A stretch of 64,000 bases of DNA from the NCBI RefSeq assembly GCF_900106535.1, contig NZ_FNOH01000002.1, forward strand, positions 1-64,000, in the 5' to 3' direction. Source of the DNA: Myxococcus xanthus (GTDB lineage Bacteria > Myxococcota > Myxococcia > Myxococcales > Myxococcaceae). Every line of letters begins with the position of its first letter. The stretch's first letter is position 1. The position numbers and the translations under genes were made by a program. The notes beneath the pieces were generated by a model, which searched no databases, was not told the origin of the DNA, and saw only the letters and a list, made by a program, of their open reading frames with translations. Shown here one piece after another: positions 25,374 to 51,434 of the stretch.

Positions 25374-27558
<2,185 letters not shown>

Positions 27559-27749: not shown

Positions 27750-27778
27750 TTGAGAAGGCAAACACCACCCGCTAGGCT
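27750..27778 (+). promoter_or_regulatory. candidate promoter of the biosynthetic cluster's plus-strand arm
   Basis: TTGAGA (27750-27755) and TAGGCT (27773-27778) are spaced by 17 bases and would start transcription near 27785, ahead of the N-oxygenase gene. The -35 is good and the -10 weak. The TTG at 27750 could be mistaken for a start codon, but codon use becomes gene-like only after GTG 27831. Confidence 0.4.
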
Positions 27779-27830
27779 TCAGACGCGAAACGACAGCCCT
27801 CTGCAACTGAAAGCGGATGACGGTGCACTG

Positions 27831-34700: not shown

Positions 34701-35071
34701 TCGGAAGCAACGTGGGCACTCCGCGGACACGCCTCAAGGCGATGGATGAACAGCTCCGTCAAGCGGAGCTGCACGGCGCATGGTTCTTCCCGGACCTCTT
34801 TGGGGACTGCCTGGGCGCGGGCTTCCCCGTCTGCTTCAACTTCACGCACTTCTGGAACGAACAGCCCTCCCCTGAGGGGGTCCGCGTGGCCGCGCGGCAC
34901 ATGCACAACGTGTGGCACTTCCCTTTGACTGTCACGCTCTCGCTGAACTCCACATCCGGCACCGCGACGCTCCACGTCATGCATGACGCCACGTCGCTGT
35001 CCCGGCCCCATATCGACGCGCTCCTGGAGCGGGTGCTCCAGGCTCTCGCCGACCGGGAGTCCTCGCCATGA
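28787..35071 (+). CDS. non-ribosomal peptide synthetase, A-T-C-A-T-C
   Basis: A 2094-residue NRPS. Domains by position: A1 about 30-530 (YTSGSTGLPKG near 162), T1 with GGDSL near 543, C1 about 600-1030 (HHIVCDG near 725), A2 about 1060-1560 (YTSGSTGQPKA near 1203), T2 with GGDSI near 1604, terminal C2 about 1670-2094 (HHAVDDGW near 1811). A2's specificity code by eye is DVGEVGSIDK, one change from the ornithine code of gramicidin S synthetase. A1 reads about DAFSNGTICK, Phe-like at its ends but not assigned. There is no initial C domain, epimerase, reductase or thioesterase, so release by C2 or by a trans enzyme is implied. The stop overlaps the kinase start (ATGA). Confidence 0.93.
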   Translation: MPHSIASTVPEAGPPLDVVELFVRQASRTPHRVAISTGTVQLTYQELERRARSLHARLGLLGAVPQTPVGVFAERTPEALVAALAVLMAGCVYVPIDPAYPTERIDYMLQDSGAPLVLGPHTHRDTRNLAARFLALDEENAPPTSLPEARQAPPHPESLAYIIYTSGSTGLPKGVMVEHGGLLNLVLDHVAAFDVVPEDRVLLVTSPSFDASMFQLFITWATGATLLLPPEHVVADPDAMVGWLNEHRATLLSMPPAYLHALGRRPIPSVRLVNTGGDAPIEEDALHYARTCRYVSTYGPTETTICSAYHEVHADASFPEGIPLGRPVRNASMFVLDEAGGICPPGQLGELCIAGQGVSRGYHARPELTAQKFVPHPYHPGARAYRTGDLGYQRSDGVFFFRGRVDRQVKIRGYRVEPEEVESRLQALEGVERAVVLPVGANASSRRLVAHVVGRPGLEPVALRRMLARETPAYMLPSRIHVLDAFPRTPNGKIDLARLQVLEPRRSASHGEPRTPEEEHLCALLEEILGVSVEADQGFFEVGGDSLSAARFIVEARARHRYMLPIQALLQGATLRALARALVTAPQAPAPEVARLPEAPGYPASDAQRRLWLVHEVNGGSAAYNLVHAWWVDGELDVALLRRALDRLIQRHEALRTRFDLRDGVLVQCIEQEARVDWLEPQGTPAPELFLEAEAAHAFSLRTGPLVRAAVLAVAPQRWLFTLNIHHIVCDGWSMGVITRELEHTYRALRGGASPPVVPLPLQLRDFTAWQRQRVEGPAGRDAAHYWRARLAEEGGSPPLDLPLDRPRPARPTQAGRVHQVRVPPEQLRALENLAQRTRTTLFVALTALVKLLLYRETRQSDISLGAPLAERDHLDLAEQVGFYVNTIVLRTRLDGRESFVQLLERVRQGSTMAQHHGLLPFDRVVEASGLPREPSRSPLFDVMIALQQEEHRALRLAGTTCTRVEIPHHTSKFDLSFDFVRTGEALVMELEYATDLFDADRIERLAQRQLQLLGEVLCKPDAPLDALQPLPPAEQTFILEMFGGRRLPTPAPDGLLAGFRHAVAKDGGRPALLCGSRRLTYTQVADEAHRLAEELGARLAKAGWPERPVAVMLERSEAFFVVVLGILELGQAYLPIDPGLPPDRIRLLLRDSSCAVFVTRASLLAGPCPEGIELVDLDTQGPVAPPGRREERPPRGASPLAYCIYTSGSTGQPKAVGVTRDNLSNAVAVWRQDYGLVRPVVLQLANFAFDVSVGDLGRSLLIGGTLVIATDEERVSPERILSLIERHRVTFLETTPVVANAIRVHLEVMDQPPPPLDLLVVGSDTWRMGDLRALRRRLHASTRLVNSYGTTETTIDSSFFELDATASGSPMSDDAMAPIGRPMTHVEFLVVDPAGRMLGIGTPGELCIAGPSVSLGYLGRPDLTAERFVPHPRHPGERMYRTGDLGVLRGDGNVALLGRADQQVKVRGYRVELGEIERVLLQHPDVHAGVVLLLGSGAQATLVGCVIGVPEEALAGLESWLAARLPHYMVPTQWLAQESFPASANGKVDRRALQAAAAHARRARQAQVMPSTPLQQVLLEGWREVLPQVRSLSVTDSFFSLGGDSIQAIQLVLALRRRGLELSAAELFRHPTIESCGAYLETRQGQPARALDLAASEVDAVVRQRLLRPGDQELYPATAVQVLMLEAHAHHRPVDAVYLGYTVWEFEDERLELAILREALLRQLSRHGALRTTFTRDTDGRWYQRVRPVAAVELAELDLSDRPRSAQDADLDERAQRELARDILADVDAPACRILLVRRGPGACALLMTTHHAVDDGWGLTAFENALLQDYAALRRGVALPVPPPLPTGRQLVALEAERLRDERARAYWADILQRLPPPPYATRAPVPPSRSRFEGFSLTVPPATQARAAQRAQDAGSSLKALYLSALLHALAEEARTDTSSAWVVMNGRSERLDAALDAVGLFWSLVPVIGSNVGTPRTRLKAMDEQLRQAELHGAWFFPDLFGDCLGAGFPVCFNFTHFWNEQPSPEGVRVAARHMHNVWHFPLTVTLSLNSTSGTATLHVMHDATSLSRPHIDALLERVLQALADRESSP

Positions 35072-36099
35072 AGGTGATACGCGCCCTCCTCTCCTCGGAT
35101 GCCGTCACGGCCCACATCCGGCAGGCCTATTCCCTGGCGGAACCCATCCAGGCGCAGCTCCTGGCCACCGGGGACAATGACTCCTATTTGATTGAGTCTG
35201 CCGGCTGGCGCGGGGTGTGCCGTGTCTACTCACTCCGGCTCCAACCGGGCTTCAGCCACGATGAGCGCCGGTGCGAGCTGGCCTGGCTCCTCCACCTCGC
35301 CGAGCGAGGCGTCCGCGTGTCCACGCCCGTGCCACGGCGGGATGGCGCGCTGCTCGGCAGGCTCGACGCCCCGGAGGGAATGCGAGACCTCGCCCTGTTC
35401 ACCTGGGCGGAGGGAGAAAGCGCCGCGTTCTCCAACCTGGAGGGGATGGAGCGCTTCGGACAGCGGCTCGCCGAGCTGCACCTGGCCTCGATGCGCTTTC
35501 AGACGCGCCTCCCCCGCATGGCCATTGACCGGAAGCGGCTGGTGGACACGCCCCTGGAGCGAATCACGGGCCTCCTCCAGGAGCTCCGGCTGGAACCGGA
35601 GCTGGCGCGGCTGCAGGCGCTCGCCGAGCCCATCCGGCGCCGGCTGGATTCCTTCCCATCCGATGAGGCGAGCCACGGCTTCATCCATGGAGACTGCAAC
35701 GGTGAGAACCACCACCTCACCCCAGACGGGCAGGTGGTGTTCTTCGACATGGACCTGAGCGGCCCGGGTTGGTTTGCCTACGACCCGGCGGTGTTGCTGT
35801 GGACGATGCGCCGGGCCGGCGTCCCCGCGCCCGACATCGTGGAGAGTGGAGCCCGGTGTATCGCGGGCTACCAGCGGGTCCGCCCCCTTGCGTCCTGGGA
35901 GTTGGAGGCCCTGGATGACCTGGTGCTGGCGCGCCACTTCTGGGTCATGGGCGAGCACATCGTCGACATCCCCAGCCTGGGCGCTCTCAGGGTCGGCCCC
36001 AGCTACTGGCGGCTGGCCATCACCCGAATCCTCGAATGGCAACAAACGCCCCTCGTCCCCTTGATTCGCGAGCGGCTCTCGCGGGAAGGCGCTCCATGA
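35068..36099 (+). CDS. APH/choline-kinase-family phosphotransferase
   Basis: A 343-residue kinase-fold protein. The N-lobe has NDSYLIESAGWRGVCRVYSL. The Brenner motif is HGDCNGEN and the metal site FFDMDLSGPGWFAYD, as in aminoglycoside phosphotransferases and homoserine/choline kinases. It overlaps both neighbours by ATGA, so it is made in step with the NRPS. It may phosphorylate the product for self-protection or activate a hydroxyl for later chemistry. Substrate cannot be told from sequence. Confidence 0.82.
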   Translation: MKVIRALLSSDAVTAHIRQAYSLAEPIQAQLLATGDNDSYLIESAGWRGVCRVYSLRLQPGFSHDERRCELAWLLHLAERGVRVSTPVPRRDGALLGRLDAPEGMRDLALFTWAEGESAAFSNLEGMERFGQRLAELHLASMRFQTRLPRMAIDRKRLVDTPLERITGLLQELRLEPELARLQALAEPIRRRLDSFPSDEASHGFIHGDCNGENHHLTPDGQVVFFDMDLSGPGWFAYDPAVLLWTMRRAGVPAPDIVESGARCIAGYQRVRPLASWELEALDDLVLARHFWVMGEHIVDIPSLGALRVGPSYWRLAITRILEWQQTPLVPLIRERLSREGAP

Positions 36100-37223
36100 A
36101 CGACCCAGTGAATACCGAAGCGACAGCGCACCAGACCGAAGCGTTCCGAAGGGAGGGCTACGTCGTCATCGAGCAGGCATTGAGCGACGACTTCCTTGAC
36201 GTGCTGCGCGCTGACTTCGAGCAGGCGTTGCACGCGAAGGTCGCACGCTTCGACCTGAAGCCCGCGCCCCGGGATGCGCGCTGCGAGGCGAACGACGGCG
36301 TTCTGAATGACTTCCAGCCCGACGGCGGCAACCACGACTTCAACCGCTGGAACATGCACCTGCCATCCCGGCGCCCGTACTTCGAGGCCATGCTGGTTGA
36401 CAACCCTCGAATCACCGGCGTCATCGACCAACTGCTGGGACCGGACTGGGTCTACTACATCATCGCGTCCGACACGCCCTTTCCGAACGCGGGCTTCCAG
36501 ACGGCCCATCAGGACTACACGCGCTTCAGCATCGCCATCAACATCCCGCTCGTCGACGTCACGCCCGACAACGGGCCGATGGAGGTCTGGCCCGGAACGC
36601 ACCAGCCACCGTCGGAGGGACGGCTCGCGCCGTTCACCACCGGGGCACACCGCATCGACGAGCCCACGCTGAAGTCGCTTGTCCGGCGGATTCCGTCACG
36701 CAAGCTGGTGATGCGCCGCGGCGCCGTGCTGATTCGCGACCACCGCATGGTCCACCGAGGCACACCGAACCTGGCGGACGCGCCCCGGTACATGCTCTCG
36801 CTGTACTGCATCGCCGCGGAGCAGGTACCCTACCGGCTCCTGTCCGACGCCGGCGCCACGCTGGCGCTGAGCCTGCGCCGGATGGGGCGGGGAAGCGGCG
36901 CCGCCGTCCGGCATCGCCGCCTCTTCGACCTGGGCGCCGTCCTGGGGCGCGTGGTCGAGGAGTGCAGCCTGAGCGACCGGGACTACCGCCGCACCTTCTC
37001 CGCGGAGCTCTGGGCCAGCCTGGGTCCACGCGCCCGTCACCACCTCCGGTTCGCGCGGGTCCAGGGCGAGGACCGGGTCCGTGGCCAGGGCGACCTGAAG
37101 GGGAGCGGGGCATTCCTCAAGCGCTACGCCCAGTCCATTTCCGAGGCCCTCCAGCGACCCGACGGGCGCCCGCGGCTCCCTGACCACTACGCGGAAGGAC
37201 GGCCTGGAACGGACGCACCTTGA
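36096..37223 (+). CDS. phytanoyl-CoA-dioxygenase-family Fe(II)/2OG oxygenase
   Basis: A 375-residue PhyH-type oxygenase. The iron triad is readable: HQD in QTAHQDYTRFSIAINIPL and the distal His in DHRMVHRGTPN, with the 2-oxoglutarate Arg expected in the next strand (APRYMLSLY). Such enzymes hydroxylate amino acids or peptides in many clusters. A hydroxyl made here could be the acceptor for the carbamoyltransferase encoded just beyond, in the opposite orientation. It starts at ATG 36096, overlapping the kinase stop. It is longer than usual (about 290); the last 100 residues are basic and of unknown role. Confidence 0.85.
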   Translation: MNDPVNTEATAHQTEAFRREGYVVIEQALSDDFLDVLRADFEQALHAKVARFDLKPAPRDARCEANDGVLNDFQPDGGNHDFNRWNMHLPSRRPYFEAMLVDNPRITGVIDQLLGPDWVYYIIASDTPFPNAGFQTAHQDYTRFSIAINIPLVDVTPDNGPMEVWPGTHQPPSEGRLAPFTTGAHRIDEPTLKSLVRRIPSRKLVMRRGAVLIRDHRMVHRGTPNLADAPRYMLSLYCIAAEQVPYRLLSDAGATLALSLRRMGRGSGAAVRHRRLFDLGAVLGRVVEECSLSDRDYRRTFSAELWASLGPRARHHLRFARVQGEDRVRGQGDLKGSGAFLKRYAQSISEALQRPDGRPRLPDHYAEGRPGTDAP

Positions 37224-37253: not shown

Positions 37254-38786
37254 TCAGCCCTGGCGGACAAGCACCTCGTTCCCCATGAAGAGCGCGTCCA
37301 TGTCGACGGCGGCGAAGAAGTCCCGGCACTGCGCCCGGGTCGCGAAGATGGGGCTGCCGCCTGCGTTGAGCGACGTGTTCAGGAGCATCGGCAGGCCCGT
37401 GTGCTGCTGGAACCGCTCCACCAGCCGCCGGGCGGAGGTCGGCGCATCTCGCCCCACCGTCTGGACCCGGCAGGTGCCGTCCTGGTGGACGATGGCGGGA
37501 ATCTCCCGCTGGCGCTCAGGGCGCGTGGGCACCGAACGAAGCATGTAGCGGCTCTCCTCCGCCAGGTCGAACCACTCGGGCGTCCGCTCCAGCAGCACGG
37601 TGGCGCCGTAGGGCCGCCACGTCTCACGGTGCTTGACGCGGAAGTTGAGCCGGTCCTTTCCATCATGCTGCCGCGGGTCCATGAAGATGGAGCGGTTGCC
37701 CAGCGCGCGCGGTCCCACCTCGCCCCGCCCCTGGAACCAGCCCACAATCTTCCCCTGGGCCAGCAACTCCACCGCCTGCGCGATGGTGCTCTCCGTGGGA
37801 GCGTCCTCGCAGTCGTCCTCCTGCCAGTAGGGAAAGCCCTCGGTGGAGAAGCGCGGCAGTCCGAGCTGGATGCGGAGCAGCTCCAGGCACCCCAGCGACA
37901 GCCCCCCGTCATACCCATGGGGAGGAACGACCAGCCGGGGATAGCGGAGGAACAGCTCCTGGTTGATGACGACGTTCTGCGCACAGCCCCCCGCGTACGC
38001 AATGGCCATGTCCGGGCGCGCGAAGCGCGCGAAGTGCGCCTGCGTGTGAGCCGCCAGCAACGCGTGGACGGTCGACAGCCAGTCCCGGAAGCTCGGGTTG
38101 TCGAACTGGAAGAAGTCCGGGGTTTCGATGGGGACCCTGCCGCGCCAGGGGACCTTGTCGGTGAAGTCATACAGGCGCTCTCCAAGCGCCTCGACGTCGA
38201 CCGAACGAACGAAGTCCTGGTCCACCTCGCCATACGCCTGCGCGCCCATGACCTTCCCGGCCAGGTCGCTCTCGTTTCCCGGGGTGGCGCTCAACTTCAT
38301 CAGCTCCCCGATGCGCTCGAGGAGCCGCCCGAAGGAGCGCGTGGCGTTGTGGTGGACGAGCTCCGGGTTCCGCGCTCCCGGGCGGGCGATGACCGTCTTG
38401 CGTGCCTCGTTGTCTCCCCGGCCGTCAATGGCGAAGCCCAGCTCCAGTTCAGCCGTGTCGGCCACGGGCCAGGTGCTCAAGATGTGCGCGTAATGATGGT
38501 CCACGCAGTACGTGGGGGCGCTCCCCAGCTCCGCCACGGGGGAGACCTTCTTCCAGAGTTCGCCCAGCTTGCACGCGCCGAGCCCATTGCGGTCCCCATC
38601 CGAGAAGGCAATCCCATCCAACCGGGTGACGCCCCAGCGCTCGCACATCTCCCGGACGAACGAGAGCGCCGAGCGATGGTGCTTGATGCCCGTGAGCCGC
38701 TCGGACTTCGCATAGCGGACCCGGCCATCCACCGAGAGGGCAACGTTGCTGTCGTGAAGACCAATATAGACGCCAAGTAGGTTCAT
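37254..38786 (-). CDS. NodU/CmcH-family O-carbamoyltransferase
   Basis: A 510-residue carbamoyltransferase using carbamoyl phosphate and ATP via carbamoyl-adenylate. The N-terminal Kae1-like half begins GVYIGLHDSNVALSVDG and has VDHHYAHILS (metal His residues) and LGFAIDGRGDN. The C-terminal half has YAGGCAQNVVIN, GWFQGRGEVGPRALGNRSI and LLNTSLNAGG, the classic NodU/TobZ motifs. Start ATG 38786 overlaps the MBL-gene stop (ATGA). It probably decorates a hydroxyl of the peptide product. It ends 30 bases from the convergent PhyH gene. Confidence 0.92.
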   Translation of the reverse strand: MNLLGVYIGLHDSNVALSVDGRVRYAKSERLTGIKHHRSALSFVREMCERWGVTRLDGIAFSDGDRNGLGACKLGELWKKVSPVAELGSAPTYCVDHHYAHILSTWPVADTAELELGFAIDGRGDNEARKTVIARPGARNPELVHHNATRSFGRLLERIGELMKLSATPGNESDLAGKVMGAQAYGEVDQDFVRSVDVEALGERLYDFTDKVPWRGRVPIETPDFFQFDNPSFRDWLSTVHALLAAHTQAHFARFARPDMAIAYAGGCAQNVVINQELFLRYPRLVVPPHGYDGGLSLGCLELLRIQLGLPRFSTEGFPYWQEDDCEDAPTESTIAQAVELLAQGKIVGWFQGRGEVGPRALGNRSIFMDPRQHDGKDRLNFRVKHRETWRPYGATVLLERTPEWFDLAEESRYMLRSVPTRPERQREIPAIVHQDGTCRVQTVGRDAPTSARRLVERFQQHTGLPMLLNTSLNAGGSPIFATRAQCRDFFAAVDMDALFMGNEVLVRQG

Positions 38787-40179
38787 CGTGCCGTAGCCCC
38801 TGTCGGGAAAACCCCACATCGCTGGAGCAGCGCGCGCGGAGCACGCGCCGAGGAAAGCGGCCTGACACCGGCCCAGCGGGCCACCTCGGCCTCGATGACG
38901 CTCGCCTGGGCCTGGCCTGAGGGAAACCGCAGACGCAGCGGATCCGAGAGAGGCGCCTGCGGCTCGAACGTCAAGAACCGGCGGTAGAAGCCACCCATGA
39001 TGGCGTAGTCCCACGTCCGCGTCCCCGAGGCGATGCCGTGGAGCACCGAGGCCGTCACCAGGGAATGGACCGTGGCCAGCGAGCTGGCGCCCCGCGCCAT
39101 CCGCGGAGGGCTCGCCGTGAAGTCGATACACCAGGACAGCCGCTCGTCCGGGAACACGACCTCGAGCTGCTGGACGACGCCATGTTGCTGGTGAAGGCGC
39201 CAGCACGTCGCGTCGGCTTCCTCCAGGAAGCGTGGCAACTCGACGTCCATCACTCGCTCCACGGAGGCGCGGATGGCCGCCGCTTCATCCGGTGCGCAGG
39301 GCCCATCCACCAGGCGCCCATCGAAGTCCACCGGACGGTAGTCCAGGGACACGCGGGCCTCCGGGAGCCGCCGCACGAAGGAGGCGCCTCCCGCGTCGAG
39401 GCGAAACCCTGCCGCTCCGAACTCCAGCACGTCCCCCGGGTCCATGGGGAACACCGCACAGTCCCCCCGGGCCCGCTTCACGTCCACGCAGAAGCGCGCG
39501 CGGGACACGGGGAACACCACCTGGTTCAGCCACGAGGAGATGCCACAGTAGCGAAACCCATTGGCGCCCGGAACGACTGCCCGCGGCTCGAGCGCCGCCA
39601 CGTGCCCGAGCAGCTCGGCATAGCGCTGGACTGGAAACGCGACCGGCCTGTTCCACTGGAAGTCCACCTCCAGCATCGGCTGCCAGGAGGCCAGAAACAC
39701 GTCGAGCGTCGGAGCGACCTGCCGGACCGCCGCCACGGCCGACGCATCCAGCACGGTATCCACGGCGTTGAAGCAGGTGCCCGTCTCGTCCTGAATCACC
39801 AGGCCGAACTCACGCACCGGCGCCCGCGACGGGGTCGTCACGAAGCGCGTGCCCCCCACGAAGAACTCCGTGAGCGGAGCCAGCGCATGGACCTCCTCGA
39901 AGCCGAGCGCCCGCAACGACTTCTCGAGCAACGGGTCCTGGGGAACGACGACCTGAACCTGGCGGGGCAGGTGCGCGAGGCTCCGGATGTCGAAGTGGTC
40001 GAGATGCCGATGCGAGATGACCAGCACATCGAGAGGAGGGAGCCGTGCGTGCAGCACCTCCCGGGCGGGATGGACGTGGAACAGTCCTTCCTGGTGAGGA
40101 TCCCACAGGACAGGGTCCATCAGGACGCGGCAGTCCGCCGTCTCGATGAGGAGCGATGCGTGCCCGATGAGCGTCAGCC

Positions 40180-40183
<4 letters not shown>
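38783..40183 (-). CDS. metallo-beta-lactamase-fold protein with a large C-terminal domain
   Basis: A 466-residue protein. Residues 1 to about 210 are an MBL fold with HRHLDH (H58, H60, D62, H63) following GHASLLIETADCRVLMDPVL, as in UlaG-like hydrolases. The C-terminal half is unlike ordinary MBL enzymes. It contains RASVERVMDVELPRFLEEA, WCIDFTASPPRMARG and YRRFLTFEPQAP, and I do not recognise it. It is not arranged like the oxygenase CmlA, where the MBL part is C-terminal. Coupled by ATGA overlaps to the exporter and carbamoyltransferase genes. Hydrolysis or oxygenation of an intermediate are both possible. Confidence 0.72.
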
Positions 40184-42483
<2,300 letters not shown>

Positions 42484-42869: not shown

Positions 42870-44627
42870 TCACGGGATGACTCTCATCATCCCCTTGAGC
42901 AGAAGTTGATCCAGCAGCCCCCGTTCGGAGAGCGAGCACCCGGCGAGCAGGGGCCCATAGGCATGCGGTTGCGACAAGCGCTCCAGCAGCGCCGAGTTCG
43001 GACGATTCCAGAGGATGCGGACGGTATCCTGATGGTCCCCGTCCTCGAAGTAGAAGCGAAGGCACGGGCTGGGGCGTCCGAAGCGTGGGGCGACCTCGTG
43101 CGCGTGCCGCTCCGGCGACTCCCAGTAGGGGCCGTGGTCGAATGCCTGGGGCCGAGCGTCCAGCTTGTCCTCGGCGGAGTCAGCGATGGGGTGCTCCAAC
43201 GTGACGCTCTGGCGGAACTTCACATTGGGCATCAACTGCACGAGCGCGTCATCCGCGGGCCGCAGGCGCTGCAACTGAGCGAAACTCGTCCGCCAGGCGC
43301 CCGTCTCGCTCAGCGCCTCTACCGCATCGTTCCCCTGGCTGATGACATGCAACAGGTCCTCATCCAGAGAACCATTGACCAGGTAATGGAAGGTTGCGTT
43401 CCGGACCTCGAACGTCGCCCGCTCGCTGCGCTCACGCCAGTAGACGCTGCCGGGGTGGGCCAGGGAAATCTCGTTGTACCACTGGTCGATGGCGAGCGAG
43501 AACACCTGCGCCTGTTTGCGCAGCATCTGGTCATAGTCATGCCAGAGGTCCTCACGATGCTGCTCGGGCATGGCCTCGTCGAAGGCAGCCCGCACGAGCA
43601 CCGCCGCCGCGGCCGTGTGGTGCAGGGCGAAGTGGACGCCCGTGGAGAACAACGGGTCCACAAAGAAGGCAGCGTCGCCCACGCGAATCTCACGATTCTC
43701 CCAGGAGCACATCTGGTGGCTGATTCGCGAGTAGTTGGCCGTTGTCCTGAACTCATCGTAGATGAGCTCGGCGTCCGCCACGAGGTCGCAAAGGAAGGGC
43801 ACCTTCCGGGCGGTCTCCATGAACACGGAGGGGGACATGTAATCGCGCTTGCTCTTCAGGCCCCGGGGGTCGGTGACCAACCCGAGCGAGTGGACGACCT
43901 CCCTCCTGCCGTCCACCTCGAGCGGGATGGGGATGTACCAGAACCACCCGTCCTCGAACGCGAAGCTTCCTATCGGCGATACGCCGGACTCGCGGAAGAT
44001 GTTCCAGTCCCCCGGGAGCGACTGCGCGGGCTTGCCCTTGCGGATGTAGCTCCAGATAGCGATGTTGCGGTAGGACGACAGGAATTCGCGCGGCCCCCCA
44101 AGGGATGTCACCGAGTAGCGGCCCGAGGCATTGACGAACACCTTGCAGCGGGCACTGCCCTTCTCCCCCAGGTCGACCTCCGTGAAGCCGTCGCGGCGGT
44201 AGACCTGCTTGACGGGCGTCCCCTCGAAGACCTCCGCCCCGTTCTCCTCCGCATGACGCAAGAGGATGTCGTCGAGCTCCGCCCGGTTGGCATGGAATGC
44301 CCAGCGGCGGTACCCATCCCGTTCGTAGGCTTTGTGTTCGAAGAAGGTGGACCAGGGGCGCACCGCGTCCCATGAGTAGTACCCACCGCCCTTCTTGATC
44401 CAACAGTCGCTGGACAGCACGCGCCCGAGCGCCCCGCTCTCCTGCAGTGAGGAAACCGCGGAGGGGACAAAGGACTCTCCGATGTGCTCACGAGGAAATC
44501 GCTCAGATTCGAAGATGGCCACCGAGAGGCCGGGGTCCTTCCGCAGACGCGCGGCGAGCGTGGCTCCCGCGGGTCCTCCGCCCATGACAATCACATCATA
44601 CAGCTTGCCTTCCCAGGCTCCGCTCAT
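42870..44627 (-). CDS. flavin-dependent halogenase
   Basis: A 585-residue FADH2-dependent halogenase from ATG 44627, which has GGAG 6 bases upstream (ATG 44639 lacks one). FAD motif GGGPAG is at 16-21, the halogenase signature WFWYIP (WxWxIP) at 228-233, a Lys pair K78/K79 in WIKKGGGYY, and DPLFSTGVHFAL at 323-334. The last matches phenol/aliphatic-type halogenases (CndH, CmlS) better than tryptophan halogenases. The C-terminal 150 residues are longer than in PrnA. A likely substrate is an aromatic or activated acyl group on the NRPS carrier. Confidence 0.85.
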   Translation of the reverse strand: MSGAWEGKLYDVIVMGGGPAGATLAARLRKDPGLSVAIFESERFPREHIGESFVPSAVSSLQESGALGRVLSSDCWIKKGGGYYSWDAVRPWSTFFEHKAYERDGYRRWAFHANRAELDDILLRHAEENGAEVFEGTPVKQVYRRDGFTEVDLGEKGSARCKVFVNASGRYSVTSLGGPREFLSSYRNIAIWSYIRKGKPAQSLPGDWNIFRESGVSPIGSFAFEDGWFWYIPIPLEVDGRREVVHSLGLVTDPRGLKSKRDYMSPSVFMETARKVPFLCDLVADAELIYDEFRTTANYSRISHQMCSWENREIRVGDAAFFVDPLFSTGVHFALHHTAAAAVLVRAAFDEAMPEQHREDLWHDYDQMLRKQAQVFSLAIDQWYNEISLAHPGSVYWRERSERATFEVRNATFHYLVNGSLDEDLLHVISQGNDAVEALSETGAWRTSFAQLQRLRPADDALVQLMPNVKFRQSVTLEHPIADSAEDKLDARPQAFDHGPYWESPERHAHEVAPRFGRPSPCLRFYFEDGDHQDTVRILWNRPNSALLERLSQPHAYGPLLAGCSLSERGLLDQLLLKGMMRVIP

Positions 44628-44690
44628 GAGCAACTCCATGCACCGAACACATCCATTGGATTGAAGAGGGCGCACCGGAAACAAGAGCGC

Positions 44691-45956
44691 TCACGCACAG
44701 GAGCGCCCCTGACCACCGTGCGCCTGCACGATTGACCACACTTCTTCTTCCGTCAGTGTCGACGCCGCGGACTTGGCCCTCCGGAGGATCTCCTCGCAGA
44801 GCTGCTCATTCTCTTGCAGGCCACGCACCATCAGCCAATACCTGACGCCGCTCATCCCGCTCATCGGCCCGAGTTCGAGCTGCTGGCGCCGGCCAAACTC
44901 ACCAGCGGGAACGGATGAATAGATGTGGTCGGCAAGCCAATCATCCCCCCGCTCGAGCGCCTTGATGATGGCGGCCGAATGAACGCCCGTGGCAGTGCGA
45001 AACGCATCCTCCCCCACCAGCGGATAGTTCCGCGGAATCGGAACCCGGCAGACCTGGGCAAGCGTGAGGACGTAGTCCACGAGCCGCGTGAGGTCCTGGT
45101 CAATCCACCCCAGGAGCTTGAGATTGAGCAGCAGCAACTCCACGGGGGCATTGCCCGTGCGCTCGCCGATTCCCAGCCCACAACCATGGACTCGCGTCGC
45201 TCCCGCCTCCAGGGCCACGAGCGCGTTGATCAACGCCAACCCTCGGTCGTTGTGACCATGCCACTCGACCTTCACCGGACTGCCGAGCCGCTCCACCAGG
45301 TCCCGTGTCCACCGCACCAGGGCGCGGGTTCCGGCTGGCGTCGCATGCCCCACGGTGTCGCAGAGCACCAGCCGGGAAGCGCCATGCTCCACCGCGGCGC
45401 GGAAGAGGAGCTCGAGCGTCTCCGGCGTGGAGCGGGTGGTGTCCTCGGTGATGAACGCGACCTCCAGCCCCTGACGCACGGCGAAGTCGATGGCCGCCGT
45501 CGAGGAACGCAGAATGAAGTCCAGGTCCCATGCCTCAGCGCACTGGCGTAGGGGGGACGAGCCAATGAACGTATGCACCACGATGGGCTGCCCCGCCCGC
45601 TGCACCGCCTCGACAATGGGGACGATGTCGCTGTGCAGCGTCCGCGCCGCACAGTTGGGCTCGAGCCGCAGCGCCTCCTCCCGGATGTGGCGCGCCAGCG
45701 TCACGACCTCCTCGAGCGCCCACGGCCCCGCCGCGGGCATACCGAGGCTCACCGCGCTCACCCCGATGTGTTGCATCAACTCGAGCAGGCCGCGCTTCTC
45801 TTCCACCGTGGGGCTGGTGACGGCCGTCGCCTGCATCCCATCCCGGAGCGTCTCATCGTTGATCTCGACTGGGAATGCAGGGCTCGGGGCGGCCCCCCTT
45901 CCATTCCAGTCGTGGATGAACTCGGAATGAGAAACAGTCCTGGCCGGGTCGCGCAT
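44691..45956 (-). CDS. alpha-isopropylmalate/homocitrate-synthase-family chain-elongation enzyme (HphA-like)
   Basis: A 421-residue DRE-TIM metallolyase that would condense acetyl-CoA with a 2-oxo acid. NDETLRDGMQ (33-42) supplies the catalytic Arg/Asp, EWHGHNDRGLALINALVAL the metal-binding HxH, and GCGLGIGERTGNAPVE the family's second motif. It lacks the LeuA C-terminal leucine regulatory domain, so it is probably not feedback-inhibited like LeuA. With the fused isomerase and dehydrogenase next door it forms a full +1-carbon cassette. Substrate (phenylpyruvate, 4-hydroxyphenylpyruvate, 2-oxoglutarate or other) is unknown. Confidence 0.85.
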   Translation of the reverse strand: MRDPARTVSHSEFIHDWNGRGAAPSPAFPVEINDETLRDGMQATAVTSPTVEEKRGLLELMQHIGVSAVSLGMPAAGPWALEEVVTLARHIREEALRLEPNCAARTLHSDIVPIVEAVQRAGQPIVVHTFIGSSPLRQCAEAWDLDFILRSSTAAIDFAVRQGLEVAFITEDTTRSTPETLELLFRAAVEHGASRLVLCDTVGHATPAGTRALVRWTRDLVERLGSPVKVEWHGHNDRGLALINALVALEAGATRVHGCGLGIGERTGNAPVELLLLNLKLLGWIDQDLTRLVDYVLTLAQVCRVPIPRNYPLVGEDAFRTATGVHSAAIIKALERGDDWLADHIYSSVPAGEFGRRQQLELGPMSGMSGVRYWLMVRGLQENEQLCEEILRRAKSAASTLTEEEVWSIVQAHGGQGRSCA

Positions 45957-46143
45957 GGAAATGCCTTGCCCTCAGCGGTTTCGAATGACCTGCGGGTTCG
46001 CGGCAACAAATCCTGGCACCAAGAAAAGACCACCCCCAACCGGAAGACCAGAACCCAATAGACTCACATCGCGACGACATACACATGTCAGACAACTTCA
46101 CACCTTGCCGCGCCCTCGGGATTCCCGGATTCTCTCTGTCAAC

Positions 46144-47214
46144 ATGGCAAGAATTGCGGTCATCCCTGGTGATGGCATTGGAATCGAAGTAACCCGAGAG
46201 GTCATGCGCATCCTGCAAGTGCTCGACGCGGAAATGCGGCTCGGGCTCTCACTGGAGGCGTTTGACTTTGGCGCGGAGCGCTTCCTGAGGACAGGGGTGG
46301 GGCTGCCCCCGGGCCAGATGGATGTCTTCCGCACCGAGTTCGATGCCATCCTCCTGGGCGCGATGGGGGACCCGCGCGTGCCAGACAATGCGCATGCGAG
46401 GGAAATCCTGCTGGGCCTGCGCTTCGGGCTCGACCTCTACGTCAATTTCCGGCCCTGCTCTCCGCTGGCGGAGCGCCTCTCCCCGCTCAAGGGCAAGGGA
46501 CCGCAAGAGATTGACATGACAATCTTCCGCGAGAACACGGAGGGCATCTACGGCGCCATCGGCGGGAGCTTCAAGCGGGGCACACTCGACGAGGTCGCCA
46601 TTGCCGAGGAAATCCATACCCGCAAGGGGGTGGAGCGAATCATCCGCGCCGCGTTCAAGTGGGCCAGCGCCCATGGCAAGCGGCACGTAGCGCTGGGGGA
46701 CAAGTCCAATGCCATTGCCGCCCACGGCCTCTGGCTGCGGACCTTTCGTGAGGTCGCCGCCGAATACCCGCAGATTGAGGCGCGGCACTACTACGTGGAT
46801 GCCTTGGCGCTCCAGATGGTGACACGGCCGGAGTCCCTCCAGGTCATCGTGACGACCAATCTCTTCGGCGACATTCTGACGGACCTGGGCGCGGCCCTGA
46901 GCGGTGGGCTTGGCGTTGCGCCCTCCGCCAACCTCAATCCGGACTCCACGCCGCTCTTCGAACCCGTGCATGGCTCGGCACCCGAGCTCACCGGCAAGGG
47001 GCTGGCCAACCCCGCGGCCATGGTGCTGAGCGCGGCCCTGATGCTCGAGCACCTCGGTCAGGCTGGGGCCGCCCGGCGTCTGAGCACGGCCGTTCAGCAG
47101 ACGGTGGCGGAGGGCCAGTGCACGCGCGACGTGGGGGGAACGCTCTCCACGACGGAGGCGGCCGACGCCATCCTGGACCGGATGCTCCAGGGACTCCGGC
47201 GGACCCGCACGTAG
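46144..47214 (+). CDS. isopropylmalate-dehydrogenase-family enzyme (HphB-like)
   Basis: A 356-residue NAD-dependent beta-decarboxylating dehydrogenase. IPGDGIGIEV opens it. The substrate-Arg helix is LRFGLDLYVNFRP, where leucine enzymes usually have LRKxLxLxANLRP, so the substrate pocket differs. FRENTEGIYG, DALALQMV, TTNLFGDILTDLGAALSGGLG and PVHGSAPELTGKGLANP complete the family pattern. The 187-base divergent region before it separates it from the synthase gene. No strong ribosome-binding site is visible before ATG 46144. Confidence 0.88.
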   Translation: MARIAVIPGDGIGIEVTREVMRILQVLDAEMRLGLSLEAFDFGAERFLRTGVGLPPGQMDVFRTEFDAILLGAMGDPRVPDNAHAREILLGLRFGLDLYVNFRPCSPLAERLSPLKGKGPQEIDMTIFRENTEGIYGAIGGSFKRGTLDEVAIAEEIHTRKGVERIIRAAFKWASAHGKRHVALGDKSNAIAAHGLWLRTFREVAAEYPQIEARHYYVDALALQMVTRPESLQVIVTTNLFGDILTDLGAALSGGLGVAPSANLNPDSTPLFEPVHGSAPELTGKGLANPAAMVLSAALMLEHLGQAGAARRLSTAVQQTVAEGQCTRDVGGTLSTTEAADAILDRMLQGLRRTRT

Positions 47215-47301
47215 GGGCGGATTGCCCTGCCGCGTGAGGCTGGTGAGCGGAACGCCATCCTCTTGAGGGGACGCCAGCGCGTCCCAAGAAAGGCGCTGCA
47301 C

Positions 47302-49272
47302 ATGAACACCCGACCCATGACCCTGACGCAGAAAATCCTGGCCCACCATGCCCGGCGCCTCGATCGCCCCTGGGTCCAGGCGGGAGACGTCCTGCAGCTC
47401 CGGGTGGACTGGACGATGGCGAGCGAGCTGGCCTGGAACGGCATGGACCGCACCTACCAGGCCCTGGGACGCCCGGAGCTCCACGACCGGGAGCGCGTCT
47501 TCCTCGCCGTGGACCACACGGTGGACGCAGTGACCCTTGCCAAGGACGTGCGCGTCCAGCGGCTGGTACAGCGCTCGCGTGACTTCGCCCGCGAACGGAG
47601 GCTGCGCCACTTCTACGATGCCAACGAGACCATCCTTCACACGAAGTTCTATCGAGAGCTGGTCCAGCCAGGACAGTTGGTGCTGGGAGCCGATTCACAC
47701 ACCACCTCCCATGGAGGGATGGGCGCCTTCGCCATCGGACTGGGTGGAGCGGACATCGTTGCCGCGATGGTACTCGGGGAGACATGGCTCGAGGTTCCCG
47801 AGGCCATCACCGTGGAGTACCAGGGCACGCCTGCCTTTGGCATCGGCGGCAAGGACATCATCCTGAAGACCTTGGGGCTCCTTGGAAGGAACACCGCCGC
47901 GCTGGAGCGGACGGTGGAGTACCGCGGAGAAGCCGCGCGCGGCTTCACCACGGACATGCGCTTCACCATCGCGAACATGACGGCGGAGCTCGGCGGGCTG
48001 AATGGCATCTTCGAGCCCGACGCGAGGGTCACCGAGTGGCTCGCCATGCGCCCGTCGAACAAGGACGAGGCCCTGTACTTCCGCGCCGATGAGGATGCGC
48101 CCTACGTACAGCGCTTCAGCATCGCGCTGGAGAAGCTCGGGCCGCAGCTCGCCCGGCCCTACGCTCCGGACAACGTGCTGGAGGTCCAGGACGCGGTAGG
48201 GATGGCGGTGGACGGCTGCTTCATCGGTGCGTGCACCACCACCGAGGAGGAGCTCGTGCTGGCGGCGCTCCTGTTGGAGCAGGCGCTCCGAGGCAAGGCG
48301 GCGCGCCCCGCCTCACCCAAGCGGCTCGTGGTGCCCGGGGACCTCGCCATCCACGAACGAATGCGGCAAGCCGGCCTGTGGCGGCACTACGAGCAGGCGG
48401 GCTTCCGAATCGGCCCGCCAGGCTGCTCCATGTGTCTGGGCGTGGCCTCAGAAAAGGCCCTTCCCGGCGAGGTGTGGCTCACATCACAGAACCGCAACTA
48501 CGAGAACCGGATGGGGCCCGGATCACACGCTTGGCTCGCCTCGGCGGCCACTGTAGCGGCCTCCTCCCTGGAGATGCGCGTGGAGGACCCCCGCGCCGCG
48601 CTGAAGAGGATCGACCCGTCCGTCCTCGAGCGAATCCTCGCCCGCAAGCCAGCGGGCCGCCCCATCGAGTTCCCGTCCTCCGAGCCACGACTGCCCATGA
48701 CGCCCCAGCCACATGACGGCGGCACGCGCGCGGGCACGGCCTCCGGAGGACGCATCGCTGGACGCATTCAGCGCTTCGGGAACCATGTCGACACGGACGC
48801 CATCATCCCGGGCGAGTTCTGCCACCTTGATGAGCCCTCGGAGCTGGCTCGCCATGCATTCAGGTATGTCCGCCCCGAGTTTCTGGAACGCGTGCAGCAG
48901 GGGCGGACGCTCATCGTCGCAGGGGAGGGCTGGGGCACGGGCAGCTCCCGAGAGCAGGCCGTCTGGGCGCTGGCCGGGGCCGGCATCAAGGCCGTCATCG
49001 CCAGCAGCTATGCCTTCATCCACCGGCGCAACCTGGTGAACGAGGCGCTGCCCCACCTCGTCGTGACGAGCCCTGCGTTCCACGCCCTGGTCCAGGAAGA
49101 CGAGGAGCTCGTCGTCGACCTGGAGACGGGCCTGGTGGAGCATGTGGCGAGCGGCCAACGGTTCCAGGCCGAGCGGCCCAGCCCCATCGCCCGCGCGCTC
49201 ATGCAAGAGGGCGGACTCGTTCCCGCCATCCGGCGCCTCGGCGCCCGGGCGCTCCACCTCGGAGCCCCCTGA
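47302..49272 (+). CDS. fused LeuC-LeuD-type isomerase (HphCD-like)
   Basis: A 656-residue aconitase-superfamily protein with both subunits in one chain. The large-subunit part (about 1-450) has DSHTTSHGGMGAFAIGLGG and three cluster cysteines (GACTTTEEE and GPPGCSMCLG). The small-subunit part (about 480-656) has HVDTDAIIPGEFC and the catalytic Ser in GWGTGSSREQAVWAL. A disordered link (about 455-478) joins them. Bacterial LeuC and LeuD are normally separate; the fusion is a feature of the homophenylalanine HphCD enzyme. AAAGG precedes the ATG. Ends the cluster; a hairpin follows. Confidence 0.88.
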   Translation: MNTRPMTLTQKILAHHARRLDRPWVQAGDVLQLRVDWTMASELAWNGMDRTYQALGRPELHDRERVFLAVDHTVDAVTLAKDVRVQRLVQRSRDFARERRLRHFYDANETILHTKFYRELVQPGQLVLGADSHTTSHGGMGAFAIGLGGADIVAAMVLGETWLEVPEAITVEYQGTPAFGIGGKDIILKTLGLLGRNTAALERTVEYRGEAARGFTTDMRFTIANMTAELGGLNGIFEPDARVTEWLAMRPSNKDEALYFRADEDAPYVQRFSIALEKLGPQLARPYAPDNVLEVQDAVGMAVDGCFIGACTTTEEELVLAALLLEQALRGKAARPASPKRLVVPGDLAIHERMRQAGLWRHYEQAGFRIGPPGCSMCLGVASEKALPGEVWLTSQNRNYENRMGPGSHAWLASAATVAASSLEMRVEDPRAALKRIDPSVLERILARKPAGRPIEFPSSEPRLPMTPQPHDGGTRAGTASGGRIAGRIQRFGNHVDTDAIIPGEFCHLDEPSELARHAFRYVRPEFLERVQQGRTLIVAGEGWGTGSSREQAVWALAGAGIKAVIASSYAFIHRRNLVNEALPHLVVTSPAFHALVQEDEELVVDLETGLVEHVASGQRFQAERPSPIARALMQEGGLVPAIRRLGARALHLGAP

Positions 49273-49306: not shown

Positions 49307-49442
49307 CAAGACCGCGCCTGGAAACAGCGCCCGAAACCGCTCGTTGTCAGGGAACGACCACTCAGGCCGAAGGTCCCAGCAAAGGCCAGGAAGCCACGTC
49401 AGACTGGCAGTGCATGCTTCACGGAGTCAGGAGCCCCCCGCC

Positions 49443-49565
49443 ATGTTCGCCCTCCCCTCCCCCGTCCTCGTCGTCGCCGCCATCGTCCTCTTCCCCGTCG
49501 TCCTCGCCGGCAGCATGCTGCTGGACGCCTTCGAGACGGAGCTGGAGGAGCGCCCGGCGCAGTGA
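49443..49565 (+). CDS. tiny membrane protein
   Basis: A 40-residue peptide: one hydrophobic helix (MFALPSPVLVVAAIVLFPVV and a few more) followed by an acidic tail. AGGAG lies 9 bases before the ATG. It is 31 bases from the histidine-kinase gene and may modulate it, but the protein could also be spurious. Confidence 0.4.
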   Translation: MFALPSPVLVVAAIVLFPVVLAGSMLLDAFETELEERPAQ

Positions 49566-49596
49566 CGCGGCCGGCGGTGTAGGCTCCCGCTGGCGC

Positions 49597-50658
49597 ATGC
49601 TGGAAACAACGGAAGGCTCCATCGTCCGCGCCACCCTGCGGGCCCTCGTGGAGCCCCGACGGCTGCTGCCCATCCTCGTCATCTCCGTCGCGCTGATTAC
49701 CGCGCAGGTGCGCTTCAGCCACGCCCCCCTCTGGGCCGCGTTCGGGCTGGGCCTCTTGATGTGCCTGCTCTTCATCGCGGTGGCCCCAGTCTCCTACCGC
49801 GTCCTCTTCCCGGAGGGCCTGGACCTCAGCCATGGCGGCATCCGGCTCCTGCTCTACGCCACCGTGGGCAGCGGCGTGGTGCTCACCTCCGGCTTCGTGC
49901 TGCCGAAGCTCCTGGGCATGGGCCCCACCTTCCTCACGCAGCCCACCAACCTCGCGGTGTGCGGCGCGCTCTTCCTCGTGGGGGGCTGGGGCCTGGGCCG
50001 TGACATCGGCTTCGAGGAGAGCCTCACCCGCGAGCGCGCCCGCGCCGCCCGCTTCGCGCTGGAGGCCGAGCAGGCCCAGCTCCTCGCGCTGCGCAGCCAC
50101 CTGGACCCGCACTTCCTCTTCAACACGCTCAACGCCATCGCGGAGTGGTGCCGTGAGGACGGCGCCGTCGCGGAGACCGCCGTGCTGCGGCTGTCCACCA
50201 TGCTCCGCTCCGTGCTCGCGGGCGTGCGCAGCGCCACCTGGCCCCTGGCCCAGGAGCTGGAGCTCATCCGCACGCTCTTCGACCTGCACCTGCTCCGCGA
50301 CCCGGACCTCTTCCAACTCACGCTGAACATCCCCGCCGGCATGGAGGAGATTCCCGTCCCGCCGCTCGTGCTGCTCCCCCTGGCGGAGAACGCGGTGAAG
50401 CATGGCCCCGCCGCCGGCCACCGCGGCCCCCTGTCCCTGGACGTCACCGCGCGGGGACACGAGGTGGAGGTCGCCATCGAGAACCCGGGCCCCTCCCGGG
50501 GGCCGCGCGAGGGCAGCGCGGGCCTGCCCACCGTGGAGCGCCGCCTCGCCCTGGCCTACGGCGGCGCCGCCCGCCTCGTGCTCGACGGCGGCGAGGCGCG
50601 CACCCGTGTCACCGTCACCCTGCCCCGCGCGGGCCCCCAACCTGGAGTCCTCACCTGA
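49597..50658 (+). CDS. LytS/YehU-type sensor histidine kinase
   Basis: A 353-residue membrane kinase. Four to five hydrophobic segments lie between residues 20 and 132. Then comes a helix leading to the His_kinase box RSHLDPHFLFNTLNAI, with phospho-acceptor H172. An ATPase part follows with PLAENAVKHG (N box) and a Gly-rich GSAGLPTVERRL. This small HK family pairs with LytTR regulators, as it does here. The stop overlaps the regulator start by 4 bases. No periplasmic sensor is visible, so the membrane part senses. Confidence 0.88.
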   Translation: MLETTEGSIVRATLRALVEPRRLLPILVISVALITAQVRFSHAPLWAAFGLGLLMCLLFIAVAPVSYRVLFPEGLDLSHGGIRLLLYATVGSGVVLTSGFVLPKLLGMGPTFLTQPTNLAVCGALFLVGGWGLGRDIGFEESLTRERARAARFALEAEQAQLLALRSHLDPHFLFNTLNAIAEWCREDGAVAETAVLRLSTMLRSVLAGVRSATWPLAQELELIRTLFDLHLLRDPDLFQLTLNIPAGMEEIPVPPLVLLPLAENAVKHGPAAGHRGPLSLDVTARGHEVEVAIENPGPSRGPREGSAGLPTVERRLALAYGGAARLVLDGGEARTRVTVTLPRAGPQPGVLT

Positions 50659-51434
50659 GCGCCCCACTTCGCGTCCTCATCGCCGATGACGAACTGCTCG
50701 CCCGAAAGCGCCTGACGCGGCTGCTCGCGGCGCTCCCGGACACGGAGGTCTGCGGCGAGGCCTCGGACGCGGATGGCGTCCTTTCCGCCGTGCGCGCGGG
50801 CGGCGTGGACGTGGTGCTGCTGGACATCCACATGCCCGGCCTCAGCGGCCTGGATGCCCTGGCCCTGCTGCCGGAAGGCGGCCCGCGCGTCATCCTCTGC
50901 ACCGCCCACGCCGAGCACGCCGTGCAGGCCTTCGAACATGGCGCGGTGGACTACGTGCTCAAGCCCGTGGAGCCCGCGCGCCTTCAGAAGGCCCTGGAGC
51001 GGGCACGCGCACGCGGTCCGGCCACATCACCCACGAGCACGGTCAGCACCCCACCGAAGCCACCTGGCTCGCCCGTCCGCGGCCTGGGCCGCCTGCCCAT
51101 TCCCACGCGGCAGGGCATCGTCCTGGTGGATCCCGAAGCCATCTCCCACGCGTCGCTGGAGGACGAGCTGGTGACCGTGTTCACCACGCAGGGAGACTTC
51201 CTTACCGACTTCACCCTCAACGAGCTGGTGGAGAAGCTGCCGTCCGAGCACTTCCACCGCGTCCACCGCCGCGCGCTGCTCAACCTCACGCACGTGGCGC
51301 GACTGGAGCCGCTGGACACAGGTGGCTACCTGGCGCGCACGCTGCGAGGCCACGCGGTGGAGGTGAGCCGTCAGTCCGCGCGCGAGCTGCGGCGCATGTT
51401 GGGCCTGCGTCGCGGCGTCGAGGAAGAGGGCTGA
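50655..51434 (+). CDS. LytTR response regulator, apparent CTG start
   Basis: A 259-residue regulator. The receiver domain (1-120) has DD at 11-12, the phosphorylated D57 (LLDIHMP) and Lys in VLKPVEP. A Pro/Thr linker follows, then a LytTR DNA-binding domain from about 155 (TTQGDFLTDFTLNELVEKLP, FHRVHRRALLN). No ATG, GTG or TTG precedes the receiver in this frame. A CTG at 50655 has GGAG 7 bases upstream and overlaps the kinase TGA as CTGA. It is probably the real start, coupled to the kinase. Confidence 0.85.
   Translation: MSAPLRVLIADDELLARKRLTRLLAALPDTEVCGEASDADGVLSAVRAGGVDVVLLDIHMPGLSGLDALALLPEGGPRVILCTAHAEHAVQAFEHGAVDYVLKPVEPARLQKALERARARGPATSPTSTVSTPPKPPGSPVRGLGRLPIPTRQGIVLVDPEAISHASLEDELVTVFTTQGDFLTDFTLNELVEKLPSEHFHRVHRRALLNLTHVARLEPLDTGGYLARTLRGHAVEVSRQSARELRRMLGLRRGVEEEG

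Follow-up and report, generated by a model that had tools for sequence, protein, structure and literature searches.

The window analysed here is a 64,000-nucleotide stretch of Myxococcus xanthus DNA (assembly GCF_900106535.1, contig NZ_FNOH01000002.1, positions 1–64,000), and the subject of this analysis is its segment 44691–49272, which lies within a cluster containing a nonribosomal peptide synthetase (NRPS). A first-pass annotation, made from the sequence alone, had likened the three genes there to HphA, HphB and the fused HphCD of Nostoc. Judged by domains and motifs, the segment encodes a synthase, a LeuB-like dehydrogenase and a fused LeuC-LeuD isomerase, all with their catalytic motifs retained (Table 1). 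The synthase, 421 amino acids (aa) long from its probable start (ATG 45956, minus strand), has PF00682 as its sole domain and, as first described, is without the LeuA regulatory (dimerisation) domain; the motifs TLRDG, HGHND (HxH) and GIGERTGN (GER) are present, as are the metal-binding and catalytic residues of PF00682. Residues D34, R38, D39, E171, D172, H233, H235, D237, E265 and R266 are among those invariant in 54 family rows and 15 LeuA rows of an alignment in which removal of identical rows had reduced 88 matches to 72, the family set omitting, besides LeuA, L118 (broken alignment), L041 (a 32% paralogue) and L042 (NifV). The dehydrogenase and isomerase genes are divergent from the synthase gene. 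In the isomerase, PF00330 is followed by PF00694 in one reading frame, so that LeuC and LeuD do form one chain, and the motifs GACT and PGCSMC supply the cysteines expected for the Fe-S site; ATG 47302 is its likely start (656 aa), in preference to TTG 47263. The dehydrogenase begins at ATG 46144 (MARIAVIPGDG, 356 aa), the listed open reading frame (ORF) start at 45955 being probably 189 bp early, and scores 364.8 bits against NF002898, below the cut-off of 393.

Table 1. Genes of the trio and of the surrounding cluster, in window coordinates.
Feature	Coordinates	Strand	Evidence and remarks
AurF/CmlI-like di-iron N-oxygenase, directly upstream of the NRPS gene	27750..28772	+	PF11583 1.7e-37; start codon uncertain
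NRPS with two AMP-binding, two condensation and two carrier domains	28787..35071	+	Read as A-T-C-A-T-C
APH/homoserine-kinase-like phosphotransferase	35068..36099	+	PF01636; NF003558 below cut-off
PhyH-type oxygenase	36036..37223	+	PF05721; start overlaps APH gene, probably later
NodU-type carbamoyltransferase	37254..38786	-	PF16861, PF02543
Metallo-beta-lactamase-fold (MBL) protein	38783..40183	-	PF12706
ABC exporter, membrane and ATPase parts fused	40180..42483	-	Domain scan
FADH2-dependent halogenase	42870..44684	-	PF04820
2-Alkylmalate-synthase-like condensing enzyme (‘HphA’ of the first-pass annotation)	44691..45956	-	PF00682; catalytic residues; tree
3-Alkylmalate-dehydrogenase-like enzyme (LeuB/HphB type)	46144..47214	+	PF00180; NF002898; trees
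Fused alkylmalate isomerase, LeuC-LeuD order	47302..49272	+	PF00330 + PF00694; motifs; tree
Histidine kinase (LytS-like), possible regulator	49414..50658	+	PF06580; GC3 0.923
LytTR response regulator, possible kinase partner	50790..51434	+	PF04397, PF00072

On the minus strand the synthase gene is followed by those for the halogenase, exporter, MBL-fold protein and carbamoyltransferase, the last three with 4-bp overlaps between neighbours. Between synthase and halogenase the gap is 6 bp if the halogenase starts at the earliest codon, TTG 44684, and 51 or 63 bp for the likelier ATGs at 44639 and 44627. On contig QKJM01000266.1 of the metagenome-assembled genome (MAG) of Archangium sp. SZUA-606 (locus L004, repeated as L040), the genes for halogenase, synthase, dehydrogenase and isomerase, along with the beginning of the exporter gene, are arranged as in the window and encode proteins 77–86% identical (81–86% for the portion from halogenase to isomerase alone); the synthase-to-halogenase gap there is 64 bp. 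Because it recurs on this contig, the gene order joining trio and halogenase is more than chance. The NRPS cluster housing the trio is rare: the halogenase was detected in 2/96 genomes of the family (E 1e-60), the host's own and the Archangium MAG, both with the trio. In this and all other per-genome searches only the best candidates were scored (up to 9 for the synthase and HphB-like genes, 6 for HphCD-like genes and 13 for the halogenase), so absences may be misses.

Since this order recurs in a second genus, the trio appears tied to the NRPS cluster, and we read it, with a probability of roughly 0.7, as a complete one-carbon 2-oxo acid elongation module serving that cluster, the likeliest substrate being a bulky hydrophobic 2-oxo acid. 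From the chemistry of the families, the synthase would join acetyl-CoA to a 2-oxo acid, giving a 2-alkylmalate whose hydroxyl the fused isomerase would shift. Oxidation and decarboxylation by the dehydrogenase would then leave a 2-oxo acid one carbon longer, which a general aminotransferase encoded outside the cluster would convert to a homo-amino acid for loading by the NRPS. Candidate substrates are acids of the phenylpyruvate/4-hydroxyphenylpyruvate type and, as an alternative to them, C6 aliphatic acids, 4-methyl-2-oxopentanoate for example. Of the original proposal, that the trio extends an aromatic 2-oxo acid for the NRPS, the elongation module and its tie to the cluster thus stand, whereas the Hph identity with an aromatic substrate is one candidate beside the aliphatic one.

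The dehydrogenase does carry LRFGLDLYVNFRP, an LRF motif, where LRK is usual; the leu-operon LeuB of loci L124, L126 and L127 has LRK and that of L125 has LRR. As a mark of Hph enzymes the motif was rejected: it is not diagnostic, because LRF is shared by an isopropylmalate dehydrogenase-type enzyme from a genome without the synthase (locus L123, genome G188). The fused isomerase proved a weak sign too, an HphCD-like gene being present in 32/195 Myxococcota genomes, in 27/32 as a single match running from the first 20 residues to beyond residue 600.

The synthase pocket was mapped through sequence anchor motifs, not structure, at the five side-chain positions given for HphA (PMC12961565). HphA has A73, D157, A159, M186 and S242 there, with positions 73, 157 and 186 varying among HphA homologues, and homocitrate synthase (HCS) has H, R, T, S and H (PMC12961565). 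The window synthase has A103, A167, I169, V197 and H257, agreeing with HphA at 1/5 positions, where Ala103 matches Ala73. Across the 54 family rows, position 103 was Ala in 53 and Ser in one; position 167 was Ala (31), Cys (8), Thr (8), Val (4), Ser (2) or Met (1); position 169 was Val (52) or Ile (2); position 197 was Val (31), Cys (18) or Thr (5); and position 257 was His (50) or Gln (4). The LeuA pattern, L, E/Q, S, N and E in 15 rows, was not that of the 54 family rows. Read in this way, the pocket is a fourth pattern, apart from those of isopropylmalate synthase (IPMS), HCS and Nostoc HphA, and is most likely suited to a 2-oxo acid with a bulky hydrophobic side chain, without singling out one compound.

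Homocitrate-type elongation, starting from 2-oxoglutarate, was rejected on this pocket. The nifV_homocitr model is the top NCBIfam match of the synthase (183.6 bits), homocitrate synthase 6ktq its top PDB match (120.9 bits, with isopropylmalate synthase 3rmj at 118.5), and His257 is common to the two proteins in the 6ktq alignment. The NCBIfam score, however, is well below the cut-off of 462.9, and the arginine that would take the side-chain carboxylate is missing: Ala, Cys, Thr, Val, Ser or Met replaces it in 54/54 rows, with Arg in 0/54. We regard this origin of the trio as hardly credible.

Within the 9.26-Mb host genome the trio is the sole set of its kind, because the other members of its families score as other enzymes. 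PF00682 had three matches, PF00330 two and PF00180 three, window genes included, and by model score the remainder were 3-hydroxy-3-methylglutaryl-CoA lyase, pyruvate carboxylase, aconitase AcnA, and NAD- and NADP-isocitrate dehydrogenase (the NAD enzyme at 427 bits, just under its cut-off of 432.4). Neither LeuA nor IlvC had a match in this genome, which fits the auxotrophy of M. xanthus DK1622 for leucine, isoleucine and valine (PMC8538405); Archangium of swarm consortia is likewise described as without ilvD, leuA and leuCD (PMC13293253).

As its genome has no further LeuA-, LeuB- and LeuC-like set, and LeuA, LeuB, LeuC and LeuD are among its nearest broad families, the trio might be taken for the leucine pathway (isopropylmalate synthase, isomerase and dehydrogenase) placed here by chance, but score, pocket, IlvC statistics and coexisting leu sets led us to reject this, and we consider it very improbable. 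Against the LeuA model TIGR00973 the synthase scored 157.2 bits (cut-off 598.7), and the LeuA pocket is replaced by A/A/I/V/H. IlvC was found in 16/62 genomes with the synthase and 41/133 others (Fisher p 0.50), and LeuA in 11/62 and 38/133 (p 0.11), indicating no positive link, whereas LeuA occurred with IlvC in 46/49 genomes (p 2e-30); these tests count related genomes as independent, and the p values are a guide. Thresholds were our own choice (synthase 1e-60, HphCD 1e-100, HphB 1e-70, LeuA 1e-75, IlvC 1e-40). Three genomes (G036, G118 and G137) hold a separate leu set beside the synthase, and the branched-chain auxotrophy of DK1622 and the genes missing in Archangium also speak against a leucine role.

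Selectivity in HphA lies at the Ala73 position, and the wild-type enzyme uses 4-hydroxyphenylpyruvate and hardly the 2-oxo acids of valine or leucine (PMC12961565); because the shared alanine sits at that position, an aromatic substrate is possible for the window synthase. Taken as a special case of the elongation module, the synthase would accept phenylpyruvate or 4-hydroxyphenylpyruvate and the NRPS would use homophenylalanine or homotyrosine, with chlorination of that residue by the halogenase as a possibility. The nearest solved relatives of the halogenase are the halogenase 3e1t (135 bits), which we take to be the chondrochloren halogenase acting on a tyrosine-derived unit, and CmlS (3i3l, 126 bits); the NRPS specificity codes, read by eye at GrsA positions, are DAFSVTTICK for A1, presumably aromatic-like, and DVGELVSIDK for A2, presumably ornithine-like. 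Set against this are the remaining pocket residues, A/I/V/H where HphA has D/A/M/S, and the occurrence of the lineage in Myxococcota genomes of 1.1–3 Mb and at loci showing no nearby NRPS. We put the aromatic version forward as a tentative possibility.

The aliphatic version, likewise a special case of the elongation module, in which 4-methyl-2-oxopentanoate or a similar acid derived from prey leucine would give homoleucine or homonorleucine for the NRPS, seems to us somewhat unlikely. It suits the hydrophobic pocket and the ornithine-like A2 code, although the analogy with mycoplanecin A6 is loose. The A2 code does not exclude loading of a homo-amino acid, because in mycoplanecin an ornithine-predicted A domain takes homoleucine (PMC10817943). 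The kinetics of HphA are unfavourable to this version: with the same alanine, the wild-type enzyme is ~240-fold below IPMS on 4-methyl-2-oxovalerate, and A73L gains 14-fold (PMC12961565).

Relatives of the synthase were widespread, occurring in 62/195 Myxococcota genomes and 48/90 genera with a match (own genome included), mostly near full length at ~47–64% identity, and at 81% in the Archangium copy. In a 71-row IQ-TREE phylogeny the window and Archangium MAG synthases were sisters (100/99) within a 14-row group (100/99), all from their own family, among rows of their own order; the group lay far from LeuA and NifV, so that the grouping with isopropylmalate or homocitrate enzymes named beforehand as contrary evidence was not seen. 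Quick trees of the dehydrogenase and isomerase likewise placed the window and Archangium MAG copies as sisters inside Myxococcota rows. Because the tree nests the window among own-family and then own-order rows, the synthase looks inherited within Myxococcota, local transfer being possible. The three enzymes would have been recruited into the cluster from this Myxococcota lineage, whose pocket is distinct and mostly hydrophobic; descent from the Hph genes of cyanobacteria was not visible, the synthase tree containing no cyanobacterial HphA. Among 20 plasmid matches listed, four were cyanobacterial, three annotated nifV and one unannotated.

Across the 195 genomes, synthase and HphB-like genes occurred together in 48, the synthase without an HphB-like gene in 14 and the reverse in 4; for synthase and HphCD-like genes the corresponding counts were 31, 31 and 1. 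Genomes in which the synthase was the sole trio member detected at the thresholds used (G049, G105, G110, G111, G112, G113, G163, G164, G175, G177, G184 and G186) are in some cases incomplete, and some may hold a solitary enzyme. In the window's own genus, one locus (L034, 7915–10242) encodes an isomerase with an extra ~100 residues between its C and D parts. A Planctomycetota MAG (L005, 10001–11233) holds a 48% synthase relative with no trio partner matched within the 21 kb around it.

Several observations weigh against an elongation module for the NRPS. The window synthase departs from HphA at four of five pocket residues, and at the thresholds used 12/62 genomes with the synthase had neither an HphB-like nor an HphCD-like gene. 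Thiolase was the commonest neighbour of the synthase, present at 31/49 Myxococcota loci, these being the ones fetched of 65 synthase places, several ending at contig edges (L024–L029, L034, L039, L067–L102 and five others; window, Streptomyces sp. KN37 and planctomycete excluded). Because the synthase is sometimes without partners and often beside a thiolase, the ancestral enzyme may do something besides amino-acid homologation. The A-domain codes name no homo-amino acid, no aminotransferase family was found among the ORFs scanned between 27.5 and 51.5 kb, in agreement with the first reading that the cluster has no dedicated one, and the Archangium contig stops within the exporter, leaving any NRPS there out of view.

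These neighbourhoods raise the alternative that the module feeds acyl-CoA metabolism through a 2-oxo-acid dehydrogenase and a thiolase, the copy here merely adjoining the NRPS cluster or supplying an acyl unit. The two thiolases classified scored best with BktB, under its cut-off, and thiolase, synthase, dehydrogenase and isomerase shared one stretch at seven loci (L067, L071, L074, L079, L084, L088 and L099). In genus g8, the trio is accompanied in 4/7 genomes by a HisC-like aminotransferase and dehydrogenase E1 alpha and beta subunits, and the Streptomyces sp. KN37 relatives adjoin two crotonyl-CoA carboxylase/reductases. In the window cluster, by contrast, no thiolase or E1 was found among the ORFs scanned, and its synthase gene stands in line with the halogenase in an order repeated in a second genus; for this copy we judge the acyl-CoA role unlikely.

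At some loci of the series L024–L029, L034, L039 and L067–L102 there are also HphB- and HphCD-like genes, or a gene for a short membrane protein. The g8 loci (L030/L031, L032/L033, L035/L036 and L037/L038) add O-methyltransferase and glyoxalase-like genes, and their last pocket position is Gln, not His. On the KN37 plasmid (L006, 19878–24146) the trio lies near an NRPS-polyketide synthase (PKS) gene, the two crotonyl-CoA carboxylase/reductases and isochorismatase-type genes.

Among the remaining cluster genes, the N-oxygenase, left unnamed in the first-pass annotation, has as its best solved relatives 5hyg (156 bits), presumably CmlI, and the p-aminobenzoate N-oxygenase 3chh (127 bits). Residues 2–122 of the MBL-fold protein show a weak likeness to part of the di-iron monooxygenase 8a90 (E 2.4e-07). 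N-oxygenase, CmlS-like halogenase and MBL-fold protein together resemble parts of the chloramphenicol cluster, the gene set being different in other respects. Chloromyxamide, which has an unusual chlorinated residue, was considered as the product of the cluster and was neither favoured nor eliminated. The amine-oxidase family gene at 26062–27558 was rejected as a source of 2-oxo acid: it encodes a protoporphyrinogen oxidase (1007 bits over 474 residues to 2ivd, which we take to be the M. xanthus enzyme). The kinase and LytTR regulator pair lies directly after the isomerase gene; its GC content at third codon positions (GC3) is flank-like, and the two may be resident genes. Mean GC3 was 0.853 in 10 cluster genes (N-oxygenase gene excluded) and 0.903 in 25 flanking genes (Mann-Whitney p 0.0003), a hint only of foreign or differently biased DNA.

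Taken together, and with odds somewhat short of even, the window may hold one specialised version of an elongation pathway for 2-oxo acids that spans Myxococcota and has not been described before. This pathway would have a pocket type of its own, would be linked to a BktB-like thiolase (in one genus also to 2-oxo-acid dehydrogenase E1 and an aminotransferase), and would occur mostly in hosts without IlvC; the NRPS would tap it for an N-oxygenated, chlorinated and carbamoylated peptide with a homologated residue. No open-access (PMC) paper was found joining Myxococcota, 2-isopropylmalate synthase and thiolase. Among the matches listed from open PMC papers, none on isopropylmalate synthase in myxobacteria dealt with this synthase lineage, none gave a myxobacterial homotyrosine or homophenylalanine lead, and none on N-oxygenase, halogenase, carbamoyl and NRPS genes described a counterpart of the cluster. 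Few amino-acid elongation modules of natural products have been characterised, and their first enzyme largely sets the residue made; a large and diverse lineage whose predicted pocket departs from those of IPMS, HCS and HphA could add a new specificity and help to infer what this rare cluster makes. More widely, the lineage points to a conserved elongation gene set, found mostly in organisms without IlvC, with a putative role in primary metabolism.

Compared with known systems, the trio shares superfamilies and catalytic residues with LeuA, LeuB and LeuCD, and differs from them in its pocket, its missing regulatory domain, its fused C and D parts and its lack of a link to IlvC. It also shares superfamilies with homocitrate synthase, homoaconitase and homoisocitrate dehydrogenase, and homocitrate synthase, like the window synthase, is short and without a regulatory domain; the window enzyme lacks the arginine for the side-chain carboxylate. 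The KN37 trio (LeuA-family, aconitase and isopropylmalate dehydrogenase proteins) is 44%, 28–38% and 44% identical to that of the window, with a pocket of A/V/V/C/H and the NRPS-PKS gene ~5 kb off in one stretch, but its isomerase is fused D then C, where the window has C then D, and the clusters are otherwise unlike. In mycoplanecin, MypK and MypL form an elongation subpathway for homoleucine and homonorleucine within an NRPS cluster; MypK, an IPMS-like synthase making homo-amino acids from 2-oxo acids, resembles the arrangement predicted here, whereas MypL fuses a LeuD-like part to an aminotransferase, with LeuB and LeuC drawn from primary metabolism (PMC10817943). The window, by contrast, has B and CD genes in the cluster and a genome without another such set. 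A close match in architecture is the set of HphA, HphB and HphCD of Nostoc punctiforme, which serve homophenylalanine and homotyrosine in anabaenopeptins: the same three-gene set of a synthase without the LeuA regulatory domain, a LeuB-type dehydrogenase and a one-chain LeuC-LeuD, an aminotransferase usually encoded elsewhere, an NRPS product served and the alanine at position 73 (PMC12961565, PMC6562525). From this set the window synthase is separated by 4/5 pocket residues and by its place in a Myxococcota clade of a tree without HphA.

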